Source: Bacilli bacterium
GTDB lineage: Bacteria > Bacillota_I > Bacilli_A > RF39 > UBA660
Direction of reading: 5' to 3'
NCBI GenBank assembly: GCA_017541325.1
Contig: JAFXZI010000014.1
Location: 1 to 45,740, forward strand
Length of the DNA stretch: 45,740 nt
The notes under the pieces are model-generated. The model saw only the letters and a list, made by a program, of their open reading frames with translations. It searched no databases and had not been told where the DNA came from. Shown here one piece after another: positions 18,926 to 24,738 of this stretch. A program made the position numbers and the translations under genes. Numbering within the stretch: the stretch's first letter is position 1; each line of letters starts with the position of its first letter.

Positions 18926-19064
18926 TAAATAATAAAAAGTAGGTACTTGTACCTACTTTAATCCCACAAAAAACAATATAAATAATTATTCTCTTTGGCA
19001 TTTACCCATCGCTAATCTGCAATCAGGTGGATGTAGGTACATCTCTTTCCTTTTCATATTTACA
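18926..19064 (-). promoter_or_regulatory. infC-rpmI-rplT leader, probable L20 attenuator
   Basis: A leader of about 140 nt in front of infC ends in a strong terminator. An upstream segment (minus strand 19040 to 19033, GTACCTAC) can pair with the terminator's own 5' arm (GTAGGTAC, 18956 to 18949), so two exclusive folds are possible. This matches the general design of the L20-controlled leaders of Bacillus-type infC operons, where L20 binding favours termination. The pairing is visible by eye; L20 binding is inferred from gene order. Confidence 0.75.
18932..18959 (-). terminator. Attenuator hairpin in the infC leader
   Basis: 11-bp stem AAAGTAGGTAC/GTACCTACTTT (arms 18936-18946 and 18949-18959) with a T-rich tail, about 25 bp before infC. 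Confidence 0.88.
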
Positions 19065-19070
19065 GGAATA

Positions 19071-19098
19071 ATTATATCATATTAATATTAATTGTCAA
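19071..19098 (-). promoter_or_regulatory. Promoter of the infC operon
   Basis: TTGACA (19093-19098) and TATAAT (19071-19076), both consensus, with a 16-bp spacer. Start near 19064. Confidence 0.82.
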
Positions 19099-21001: not shown

Positions 21002-21030
21002 AAAAAAAACTATAAATTAATATAGTTTTT
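21002..21030 (-). terminator. Terminator after the YtxH gene
   Basis: 10-bp stem AAAAACTATA/TATAGTTTTT (21005-21014 and 21021-21030) with a T tract on the minus strand, touching the ytxH-like stop. It separates the DUF308/DUF948/YtxH set from DUF1294. Confidence 0.8.
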
Positions 21031-21442
21031 ATTTTTCTTCTTCAGTTTCTAATCTTTTTAATATTTCTTTAGTTACTACAATAGCACTATTTCTTACTTC
21101 TTTAGCGATTGTATTTATAACAGGAGTTGTCTTTTCTTTAGTAAGTTCTATTAACTCATCTGTCTTTTCTTTTAAAAGTCCTGCTTGATCTATAGCTATA
21201 TCTTTTACTTTTTCTCTATCTAAATCTTGAATAGTTGCTTTTATTTCATCAACCTTTTCTAAGATAGCATCTTTTACTTCTTCTACATCAAGCTCTTTAG
21301 CTTTTTCAGTTAATTCATTTAGTTTAGCTTTAAGTTCTTTTTGAGTTTCTTTTCCACTCTTAGGAGCAAATAAAATTCCAATTCCTGCACCTATTCCTAA
21401 ACCTAAAACAAATTTCCCAATATTACTTTTCTTTTTACTCAT
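21029..21442 (-). CDS. YtxH-domain protein
   Basis: 137 residues. Short N-terminus, then FVLGLGIGAGIGILFAPKSGKET, the Gly-rich helix that defines YtxH proteins, followed by a long amphipathic helical region with repeated Leu/Lys/Glu. Members are often stress-linked and membrane-associated; the activity is unknown. Start chosen at ATG 21442 because GGATGA lies at the right distance; it overlaps the stop of the preceding gene by 8 bp, so translation is probably coupled. Confidence 0.85.
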   Translation of the reverse strand: MSKKKSNIGKFVLGLGIGAGIGILFAPKSGKETQKELKAKLNELTEKAKELDVEEVKDAILEKVDEIKATIQDLDREKVKDIAIDQAGLLKEKTDELIELTKEKTTPVINTIAKEVRNSAIVVTKEILKRLETEEEK

Positions 21443-21701
21443 AAAAATCATCCTCTTTCTTAAATTTTCTTAGCACTTTATTAAACTTTCTTTTAACACT
21501 ATATTTAATATTAGATATACGATCTGTTACATTTTCAATAAGTTCAAAAGCACCATCTAAAGATGATAGTTTATCATTTACATCTTTTAAAGCTTTATTA
21601 GTTTGATCTAAAATACCAATTAATTTAATTCCAACTATAATAAATACTATTATAAGAATTATTAAAAATACACTTAAAATCGCACTTAATACTGGATTCA
21701 T
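21435..21701 (-). CDS. DUF948-like membrane protein
   Basis: 88 residues. One long hydrophobic helix (about 5-27) followed by a Leu/Asp/Asn-rich helix and a basic end. It resembles the DUF948 proteins that pair with YtxH genes in Bacilli, and here it overlaps the YtxH gene, which supports the call. GAAGGAGG precedes the ATG. Confidence 0.7.
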   Translation of the reverse strand: MNPVLSAILSVFLIILIIVFIIVGIKLIGILDQTNKALKDVNDKLSSLDGAFELIENVTDRISNIKYSVKRKFNKVLRKFKKEDDFYE

Positions 21702-21713
21702 AAAACCCTCCTT

Positions 21714-22274
21714 CTAATCATTTTTCTCTACTATTTCAATATTATTAAAATATAGATATGAAATAATTATATTAATAATTGAATAAAAACAAATAAACAA
21801 TCCTAATATAATATTAATATTTAAAACTTCTCTTGTTGGATTTAAAAGTACTACAACACCTGATGCAAATAATATTATTAAACATAATAGACTAAGTCCT
21901 ATATTCTTATTATTTGATTTAGCCAGTAATTTAGTATCTTTTATTTTTAAAAATGGAAATATTATCATTATTACTCCAAATGTAACTTGTAATCCATCTT
22001 TTATTAATGTTGGAAAGACAAAAAGAATAATTGCTATTACAAAGGAAATAATCATATAAATTAAACTTATATCAAATTTCTTACTCTTTTCTTCACGTGT
22101 TACATATTTATAAAGACCAAATACTCCTATAATAGATAATATTATACCTAAAAATGTAGATATAAATGTAATTGTAGAAGTTGGTTTAAAAAATAAATAT
22201 ACTCCAAATATAATAAATAATATAGATCCAATTACATTAGTAAAAAAGATATTTCTTAATTCGTTTTTATTCAT
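21714..22274 (-). CDS. HdeD/DUF308-like membrane protein
   Basis: 186 residues with six evenly spaced hydrophobic helices in three pairs, short loops and no soluble domain. The pattern (repeat of a helix pair with GVYLFFKPTSTITFISTFLGI) is like DUF308/HdeD proteins. No catalytic motif. It lies 9 bp after the iPGM-like gene and 12 bp before the DUF948-like gene, so is in one operon with both. Confidence 0.72.
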   Translation of the reverse strand: MNKNELRNIFFTNVIGSILFIIFGVYLFFKPTSTITFISTFLGIILSIIGVFGLYKYVTREEKSKKFDISLIYMIISFVIAIILFVFPTLIKDGLQVTFGVIMIIFPFLKIKDTKLLAKSNNKNIGLSLLCLIILFASGVVVLLNPTREVLNINIILGLFICFYSIINIIISYLYFNNIEIVEKND

Positions 22275-22283
22275 AGTACACCT

Positions 22284-23849
22284 CTATTTCATATAACGTG
22301 AATAGTACCACCAAGCCAAATATATAATCATACCTATTACTATTATAATAATAGTTGTCTTATTATTCTTTTTACCCTTTAATATCAACACTGTTTTAGA
22401 AGTTGTATCACCCATTAAATAGATCAATGTTCTAGATATATTAGAGATAGAATCTGTTGCTAGTAAAGCTGTATTTTTACTATATACATCATCTACTACT
22501 ATATATGGAACTTTATTAGAATAATTAATTAAAACATCTTCGTTTTCAATCATAACATTTTCTTTTATTCCATATAATGAAGTAAATATTAACATATGAT
22601 GATTTTTATATGTATGTTCATACACTTTTCTTAACGCTTTATCCATTTGCGTAAAATTATATCTTAATTTCTCAATATCTCCCTTTTTATAATCATTCAT
22701 TAGATTATAATCAATAATAATAGTATCATTAGTACCAGTATCAATTTCATTAAGAAGAATTTGAGTCATTTCTGCAAAATAATCATTATTAATTTTAACT
22801 GATTTAGTATTTAAGAATGGACTAACTTCATTTTTATTACCATTTAAAACACTATTGATATATGTTGCACGAGATGAATCTGCGATAAGTGTTACTTTTT
22901 TATTTAATCTTTCTAGATGTTTTACAAAGTAATCGTCAGGTAAATCATACTCATATGCATGAGATAATGTTCCTTTTTCATTAATTGGTAACAAAGAAGT
23001 AATCTTAATATTAGTAGGATTATCATCTGTTGTATATAATTGTTTTGGATTAACAATAATACTTAAATATCTACTAATAGGCATATATGCATAGTTAAAT
23101 ATAAATATACTATCATTACTTTCAAATAAAACACGTCTCTTAGTTAAGAATGGAGAAATATTTTCATCTGCTACTCCATTTTTATAACGAGTATCAAATA
23201 ATGATTGCCAATCTGCCCACGTTTCACTTACTGAAGTTGTACATATCTTATATAGTTTAGATAAATTAGATATAGGTGTTGAGTCACTTACTAAATCTAC
23301 TCCTACTATTAAAGATATATTTACATTTTCATATCCAGAAATACTTCTAGTTATTTGTTTAATTGATTCTTTTGCTGTTTGAAGTCCTTTTTCACTGTTG
23401 TAACCACAGAACAAGTGAATACATACTTCTTTAACATTTTGTTTTATACATTCTTTTACAAAAGCATTCAATTGATCTCCTGTTGAATAAGAGAACTTAT
23501 CACCTATCATGAAAAAGATATGCATTTTTGATTTATTTTTAGCAGCAAAATCTATACTTTCAATCATAGTATCATTAATAAAATTATTATCTAATATTCT
23601 TTTATCCATACTATGAACAGCTAAATCAATATATCCTCCATGAGAAAAGCATTGATATCCAAATTGATATGTACTAGATTGATTTGGTAAAAAACCACAC
23701 TCACGTCCATTCGCAAGCATGCTTCCATACATATATTCTTGACTTAATCTAATTACATTAGGAGTTAAATTATCTCCCAAACTATAAGAATTAGCTGCTT
23801 CGATTCCAAAACCATTGGCTAAAAATAATACTTTTTTCTTTCCATCCAT
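22284..23849 (-). CDS. Membrane-anchored iPGM-fold pseudoenzyme
   Basis: 521 residues. The whole length follows cofactor-independent phosphoglycerate mutase (alkaline phosphatase superfamily): LFLANGFGI for LILDGWG, GFLPNQSSTYQFGY (52-65) for the GLPxGQMGNSEVGH nucleophile loop, MIGDKFSYST (114-123) for LLSDGGVHSH, HLFCGYNSE (145-153) for AFLDGRDT, IADSSRATYI (322-331) for IAETEKYAHV, and FTSLYGIKE (422-430) for ITADHGN. In each the catalytic or metal residue is lost, including the serine nucleophile. A hydrophobic helix (about 498-514) and basic end follow. A GTG upstream overlaps the GGAAAGGTGG site, so ATG 23849 is chosen. It may sense or scaffold; function unknown. Confidence 0.8.
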   Translation of the reverse strand: MDGKKKVLFLANGFGIEAANSYSLGDNLTPNVIRLSQEYMYGSMLANGRECGFLPNQSSTYQFGYQCFSHGGYIDLAVHSMDKRILDNNFINDTMIESIDFAAKNKSKMHIFFMIGDKFSYSTGDQLNAFVKECIKQNVKEVCIHLFCGYNSEKGLQTAKESIKQITRSISGYENVNISLIVGVDLVSDSTPISNLSKLYKICTTSVSETWADWQSLFDTRYKNGVADENISPFLTKRRVLFESNDSIFIFNYAYMPISRYLSIIVNPKQLYTTDDNPTNIKITSLLPINEKGTLSHAYEYDLPDDYFVKHLERLNKKVTLIADSSRATYINSVLNGNKNEVSPFLNTKSVKINNDYFAEMTQILLNEIDTGTNDTIIIDYNLMNDYKKGDIEKLRYNFTQMDKALRKVYEHTYKNHHMLIFTSLYGIKENVMIENEDVLINYSNKVPYIVVDDVYSKNTALLATDSISNISRTLIYLMGDTTSKTVLILKGKKNNKTTIIIIVIGMIIYLAWWYYSRYMK

Positions 23850-23892
23850 GCTTTTGTCCACCTTTCCATTCTAATTATATTTTAATAGAAAT

Positions 23893-24738
23893 CTATTTAT
23901 AATTCAATTCTTTTTGGATATTATATGCAATAATAACATTCTTTAGAAGAGATATTACAGTCATTCTACCTACTCCATTAGGGACTGGAGTAATAAAACT
24001 AGCCTTAGGACTAACATTTTCAAAGTCAACATCTCCTACTAGTTTTCCATCAATAAAGTTAGTTCCAACATCTATAACAACAGCACCATCTTTTACCATA
24101 TCCTCTTTTATAAAATGTGGTTTACCGACTGCTACTATAACGATATCTGCCTTATTTGTAATATTTTTCAAATCAACTGTTTTAGAGTGTGTTACAGTAA
24201 CTGTTGCATTTTCACGAAGTAAACATGCAATAAGAGGTTTTCCTACTAAATTAGACCTACCTACTAAAACTACATTCTTTCCTTCTAAATTAATATTATA
24301 TTTATGAATTAAATCCATAACTCCGAGTGCGGTACATGGAAAAAAACAATCTTTATTGTCGAATAGTTTTCCTATATTAGTAGTAGTTAATCCATCTACA
24401 TCTTTTAAAGGATCAATACTATTAATAATATTATCTTCACTTAATGAATAAGGAAGTGGTAATTGTACCATTATTCCATTAATAGAATTATCTTTATTTA
24501 ATTCATCTATTTTAGTTAAAATAGTTTTTTCATCAATATCTTCTTCGTAATTGATATGCATTACATCAATTCCTATTTTTTCTCCAAATTTCTTCTTTTG
24601 TTCTATATATTTATTACTAGCACCATCATGACCTACTTGAATAATTGCAAGTCTAGGACTAGTTTCTAATTTTTCTACTGATAGTTTTAATTCATCAATC
24701 ATTTCTAATTGTAAACTTTTGCCATCCATTATTGTCAT
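23893..24738 (-). CDS. folD: Methylenetetrahydrofolate dehydrogenase/cyclohydrolase
   Basis: 281 residues, normal size. Two-step folate enzyme giving 10-formyl-THF, with NADP. Visible are VGHDGASNKYIEQKKK, containing the catalytic-type Tyr and Lys, the GIMVQLPLP motif, DVDGLT, the nucleotide loop VGRSNLVGKPL and the C-terminal PVPNGVGRMT. The ATG follows the yfcE stop codon with no gap, with GAAGGTGA ahead, so it is in one operon with that gene. Confidence 0.97.
   Translation of the reverse strand: MTIMDGKSLQLEMIDELKLSVEKLETSPRLAIIQVGHDGASNKYIEQKKKFGEKIGIDVMHINYEEDIDEKTILTKIDELNKDNSINGIMVQLPLPYSLSEDNIINSIDPLKDVDGLTTTNIGKLFDNKDCFFPCTALGVMDLIHKYNINLEGKNVVLVGRSNLVGKPLIACLLRENATVTVTHSKTVDLKNITNKADIVIVAVGKPHFIKEDMVKDGAVVIDVGTNFIDGKLVGDVDFENVSPKASFITPVPNGVGRMTVISLLKNVIIAYNIQKELNYK

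Follow-up and report, generated by a model that had tools for sequence, protein, structure and literature searches.

Conserved homologues of cofactor-independent phosphoglycerate mutase that lack its active-site residues in one family of Bacilli

The locus and the predicted fold

The window is the whole stretch of DNA that was analysed, a contig of 45,740 nucleotides (JAFXZI010000014.1) from a Bacilli bacterium. Its minus strand carries a gene, here named pseudo-iPGM, whose product is related to the cofactor-independent phosphoglycerate mutase (iPGM or GpmI); a GTG at 23861 provides an alternative start (Table 1). The DUF308 gene starts 9 nt past the pseudo-iPGM stop and has a Shine–Dalgarno-like AGGTG. 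A sequence-only reading of this DNA had placed pseudo-iPGM at the head of a conserved-looking operon of small envelope proteins. The head position is not clear in the window, where folD, on the same strand and itself preceded by a metallophosphoesterase gene, ends 43 nt upstream. The order pseudo-iPGM, DUF308, DUF948 does recur, but only in the genus of the window genome (g1) and its sister genus g105. Neighbours differ across the other genera and, since their conservation stops at genera or sister genera, no family-wide genomic partner emerges; in g1 and g105, the conserved DUF308, DUF948 and YtxH neighbours offer a first guess of an envelope role. Elsewhere in the window, a promoter-like match and a hairpin lie ahead of infC and would be consistent with a regulated leader.

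Table 1. Features of the window on and around the pseudo-iPGM gene
Feature	Positions	Strand	Remarks
Pseudo-iPGM CDS	22284-23849	minus	521 aa; ATG at 23849, stop 22286-22284 included
Former LDG metal-ligand motif, now A-N-G	23811-23819	minus	residues 11-13; D12 to N
Former NSEVGH nucleophile loop, now STYQFGY	23655-23675	minus	residues 59-65; S62 corresponds to Y61
Former ADHG metal-ligand motif, now S-L-Y-G	22569-22580	minus	residues 424-427; kept in clade
C-terminal hydrophobic segment, predicted transmembrane anchor	22302-22358	minus	residues ~498-516; hydropathy, positive-inside rule
DUF308 (HdeD-like) membrane protein	21714-22274	minus	next downstream in 10/10 g1 and g105 loci
DUF948-like small membrane protein	21435-21701	minus	below Pfam cut-off; usually next in g1/g105
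YtxH-like protein	21029-21451	minus	downstream in most g1/g105 loci
folD	23893-24738	minus	upstream; position not kept in all genus members
Perfect TTGACA-16-TATAAT match	19071-19098	minus	upstream of infC
Hairpin with T-run	18936-18959	minus	between promoter match and infC start

The homology to iPGM extends over the full length, as had been proposed: the GpmI equivalog profile TIGR01307 matches residues 4-480, far above chance (E 7e-28), with 97.3 bits against a curated cut-off of 330.65 bits, and phmmer retrieves 1EJJ/1O99 and other iPGM structures (E 2e-15). Because the protein passes the Pfam iPGM_N cut-off (E 1e-11, 45 bits versus 27), genes of this type are liable to be labelled phosphoglycerate mutase, a warning for annotation. 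PADLOC and PHROGs gave zero matches, and an anti-phage or phage protein was rejected on that ground.

An AlphaFold2 model of the window protein, built with 32 clade members as input, reached a mean pLDDT of 89.4 and contains the two-domain iPGM fold, i.e., a phosphatase core with an inserted transferase domain. iPGMs make up all of its top PDB matches (Foldseek E 1e-33), and the VIA comparison with iPGM yielded Z 28.8 over residues 2-490, with 478 residues aligned and an rmsd of 5.7, a high value that may reflect a different domain angle. For a short-tailed clade member (pLDDT 91), iPGMs were again the top matches. Prediction and superposition thus bear out the supposed retention of the fold, and no fold unlike iPGM was obtained.

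Loss of the active site and maintenance of the gene

The protein was aligned with 19 intact iPGMs, all of which keep the 15 catalytic positions; it retains none of these metal, nucleophile and substrate residues, in agreement with the loss of the active site read from the sequence. The nucleophile and all metal-binding residues are replaced (S62 to Y, D12 to N, D403 to N, H407 to K, D444 to L, H445 to Y and H462 to N), as is every substrate-binding residue (H123 to Y, R153 to N, D154 to S, R185 to V, R191 to S, R261 to A, R264 to P and K336 to R), the last being the sole conservative change among the substrate-contacting Arg, Lys and His. The block-by-block substitutions listed earlier stand, except that DGRD does not become CGYN: the alignment gives GYNS (R153 = N151), shifted by one residue.

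Conservation was counted over 41 clade members, with the early branch g93 set apart. The D12 position is Asn in 40 of them (0 bits entropy), the D444 position Leu in 38 and the H445 position Tyr in 37; despite their new residues, these three columns rank within the most conserved 5% of the clade alignment. The substrate positions are mostly variable, charge-reversed or deleted: R261 is Asp or Glu in 26/41, K336 is Arg in 23/41, and about half of the members have deletions at the H123, R191 and D403 positions. In g93, which also lacks the nucleophile and most other active-site residues, D12 is retained, and one of its two members additionally keeps K336 and D403. Judged from these sequences, catalytic death is close to certain, a metal-free, substrate-free core would be the simplest reading, and the persistence of a phosphate pocket appears unlikely.

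These substitutions bear directly on the earlier suggestion of sugar-phosphate sensing, according to which the protein would bind a sugar phosphate such as 3-phosphoglycerate and report the glycolytic state to the membrane. iPGM closes its two-domain clamshell on the substrate, and this architecture is retained; the K336 position is Arg in more than half of the members, and an intact gpmI works on these metabolites too. However, every phosphate-binding Arg (R153, R185, R191, R261, R264) is gone together with H123 and D154, the charge is mostly reversed at R261, and the short forms have lost several positions altogether, so that we regard sensing as improbable. Still less credit is given to a hidden activity, in which the fold would have gained a different catalytic site. 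Other pseudoenzymes have later proved active (PMC10211241), and polar residues outside the old site are invariant in the clade (H145, E209, D246, N252, D403); but H145, D246, N252 and D403 are conserved in active iPGMs too and are therefore probably structural, and no new metal-ligand cluster is evident, which makes such an activity very unlikely.

The same genome contains an intact gpmI (G000:C10:47893-49395), the active second copy whose search had been proposed, scoring 613 bits compared with 97 for pseudo-iPGM; the idea that the latter is the genome's only iPGM, with a shifted active site, is ruled out here. Among 37 genomes with pseudo-iPGM, 31 have an iPGM over the cut-off, and G122 has a dPGM only. 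In four other pseudo-positive genomes (G027:C8, with records L066 and L108; G021, 94% complete; G286; G073), iPGM above the cut-off, full-length dPGM and archaeal-type PGM were not found, assembly gaps being possible; in G027, gpmI is absent from an otherwise conserved cluster.

Orthologues are intact and without frameshifts in all eight other sampled genomes of g1 (69-91% identity). The closest pair (dS 0.59) has a pairwise Nei–Gojobori dN/dS of 0.095, and the others lie at 0.05-0.31, the near pairs carrying the weight since many pairs are saturated at synonymous sites. In these genomes, pseudo-iPGM and active gpmI have dN values of similar magnitude. Neither a dN/dS near 1 nor frameshifts were found, which rules out a decaying pseudogene, confirms the claim that this is not simple decay and indicates purifying selection throughout the sampled genus.

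Clade, membrane anchor and possible partners

A profile search placed the pseudo-iPGM clade in about 18 sampled genera of one family of Bacilli; outside that family, none was found at a strict cut-off among 395 class-wide genomes. The public records that matched carry the labels uncultured Bacilli, Tenericutes or Candidatus Faecisoma; they are metagenome-assembled genomes, and several derive from gut or rumen samples. In a maximum-likelihood tree, 43 pseudo sequences including g93 fall on one side of a branch with 100/100 support; because this branch is long, the tree does not place the joining point of the clade among active iPGMs. Pseudo-iPGM shows the features of a conserved pseudoenzyme: catalytic residues gone beside an active paralogue, purifying selection and monophyly. 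In one subclade, active gpmI and pseudo-iPGM lie three genes apart, a proximity which suggests local duplication of gpmI. The evolutionary route can be read from linked active and dead copies, g93 with its D12, a stepwise loss thereafter and the gain of a membrane anchor. The host genomes are near 1.2 Mb, a size at which spare genes are usually lost.

Several observations were made on related sequences. Apparent second pseudo-iPGMs in DUF1538 clusters (L079_12, L084_3, L087_17, L087_18) are probably not iPGMs, but a single-linkage artefact via the fused L098 protein. The latter (G137:C16), as well as G168 and G271, has a frame of 943-965 aa that apparently joins an active iPGM to a C-terminal part of ~430 aa resembling separate proteins near DUF1538/PII-like clusters. 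In L079, L084, L087 and L088 (genera g123 and g112), after pseudo-iPGM come genes for a DUF1538-like membrane protein and for a PII-like protein, both named by eye. The 24,507-codon 'open frame' of G278:C1 (L130) is an apparent run of N and no giant gene.

The C-terminal membrane helix noted from the sequence is upheld by prediction: a hydrophobic, putatively transmembrane (TM) segment begins at residue 498, preceded by a positively charged stretch, the arrangement of a tail-anchored protein with a single C-terminal TM helix. The positive charge before the helix and the lack of a signal peptide lead us to predict a cytoplasmic main domain. TM tails are predicted in 17 of the 43 tree members (g1 in full, and g105, g20, g129, the L109-L113/L136 group and g93) and, g93 being the earliest branch, the TM form is probably ancestral. 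The other 26 have no TM segment; their tails are polybasic and partly hydrophobic, with a net charge of +1 to +8, that of active iPGM tails being -4 to +2. A reading of these short tails as amphipathic membrane helices was rejected, their moment being no higher than in shuffles, so that membrane attachment of this part of the clade is at most putative.

With regard to partners, seven records (L109-L113, L134, L136) share a cluster encoding, in order, a 390-aa membrane protein, gpmI, a small membrane protein, engB, a ~145-aa protein, pseudo-iPGM, an 83-aa EsaB-like protein and WXG100-like proteins. The 390-aa gene was not seen in L110, and the small membrane protein gene was not called in L111 and L134. 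L110 has two extra genes after engB, and EssC follows directly (TIGR03928, 931 bits). The gpmI-to-pseudo part is also present in G278, where the pseudo gene runs into a masked stretch, and G027 has the cluster without gpmI. The 83-aa protein has no Pfam or NCBIfam match and no significant PDB match, its name resting on its position beside EssC and a C-terminal pattern. The ~145-aa protein was dismissed as an obligate partner (16/26 pseudo-positive versus 8/18 pseudo-negative genomes, p = 0.36).

This cluster raises the possibility that the anchored pseudoenzyme is an accessory part of a type VIIb secretion system, serving EssC at the membrane. In its favour are the EsaB-like and WXG100-like genes directly downstream in these seven records, EssC in L110, and EssB (TIGR03926), which was detected in none of 12 family f1 genomes tested, with or without the pseudo gene. 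EssC is over the cut-off in 138 of 291 family genomes and occurs in 21 of the 32 pseudo-positive genomes counted (one, G164, by E-value); the association gives p = 0.21 at the genus level (Fisher) and p = 0.04 at the genome level, where kinship is ignored. However, only one subclade shows this linkage, EssC is missing from some pseudo-positive genomes (e.g., G008, G025, G103, G140, G210, G304), and EssB is likewise undetected in genomes without the pseudoenzyme. The consistent linkage or co-occurrence with EssC expected of a core component was not found, the system is not supported as a family-wide partner, and the link is local; an accessory role is held to be unlikely. That pseudo-iPGM would stand in for the undetected EssB at the translocase, at least in the subclade with the shared cluster, is a long shot; if true, a secretion machine would have taken over a dead glycolytic enzyme as a structural or regulatory component anchored in the membrane. 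The type VIIb loci of the 12 genomes hold EssC, EsaB-like and many WXG100-like genes; the window genome is one of these 12 and has two EssC loci (G000:C2 and G000:C6).

A protein that binds active GpmI, or a different enzyme of glycolysis, and modulates it, for instance by membrane recruitment, would fit the presence of the active enzyme in most of the pseudo-positive genomes and the shared cluster of one subclade. However, G021 shows no iPGM at its high completeness, and G122 has only dPGM. Further, iPGM is a monomer, so no dimer interface was inherited. This role is also considered unlikely.

With moderate confidence, we favour a duplicated gpmI that lost catalysis and survives as a non-catalytic scaffold or regulator tethered to the membrane. 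After duplication, one copy would have lost all catalytic function and been retained as a tethered protein, its large domain probably facing the cytoplasm. Residues fixed in the clade (NG, SLYG, E-x-W, N-Y) may stabilise a metal-free two-domain body, which would make protein–protein contacts at the inner membrane face and serve a membrane process. Scaffolding, reached by exclusion, is possible.

Comparison with known systems

Pseudoenzymes are known from many families. In the open-licence papers searched, no iPGM pseudoenzyme lineage is described, and within that literature the present one is the first pseudoenzyme reported for its enzyme family. In small-genome Bacilli known so far from metagenomes, a central enzyme of metabolism has apparently become a membrane protein without catalytic function. 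With GpmI (TIGR01307; PDB 1EJJ, 4NWJ), pseudo-iPGM shares full-length homology, the two-domain fold, the domain order and membership of the iPGM branch of the alkaline phosphatase superfamily; it differs by the absence of nucleophile, metal ligands and substrate residues, by a score far below the cut-off and by the added C-terminal anchor.

EssB/YukC, a cytoplasmic pseudokinase that belongs to type VIIb secretion and is anchored in the membrane, likewise carries a dead-enzyme domain on one TM helix, and pseudo-iPGM neighbours EssC in one subclade; however, the fold is another one, and the secretion link of pseudo-iPGM is not general.

As for second iPGM-type genes in a genome, the portion of a PGM survey consulted describes iPGM paralogues as rare in bacteria (PMC2964296). 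The cases in that portion are recent duplicates, lateral transfers and frameshifted pseudogenes, with no conserved dead lineage among them.

A precedent for the proposed way of working is YejM/PbgA, an inner-membrane protein of the alkaline phosphatase superfamily that regulates LapB/FtsH/LpxC (PMC7157816, PMC9356133); a metalloenzyme nature has also been reported for it (PMC7576196). Both are membrane-anchored members of the same superfamily, the known role of YejM being the regulation of a membrane protease complex, and the pseudo-iPGM model matches the YejM domain in Foldseek (E 3e-4). However, YejM has N-terminal TM helices and a sulfatase-like domain in the periplasm, whereas pseudo-iPGM is of the iPGM type, predicted to be cytoplasmic and held by one C-terminal TM helix.
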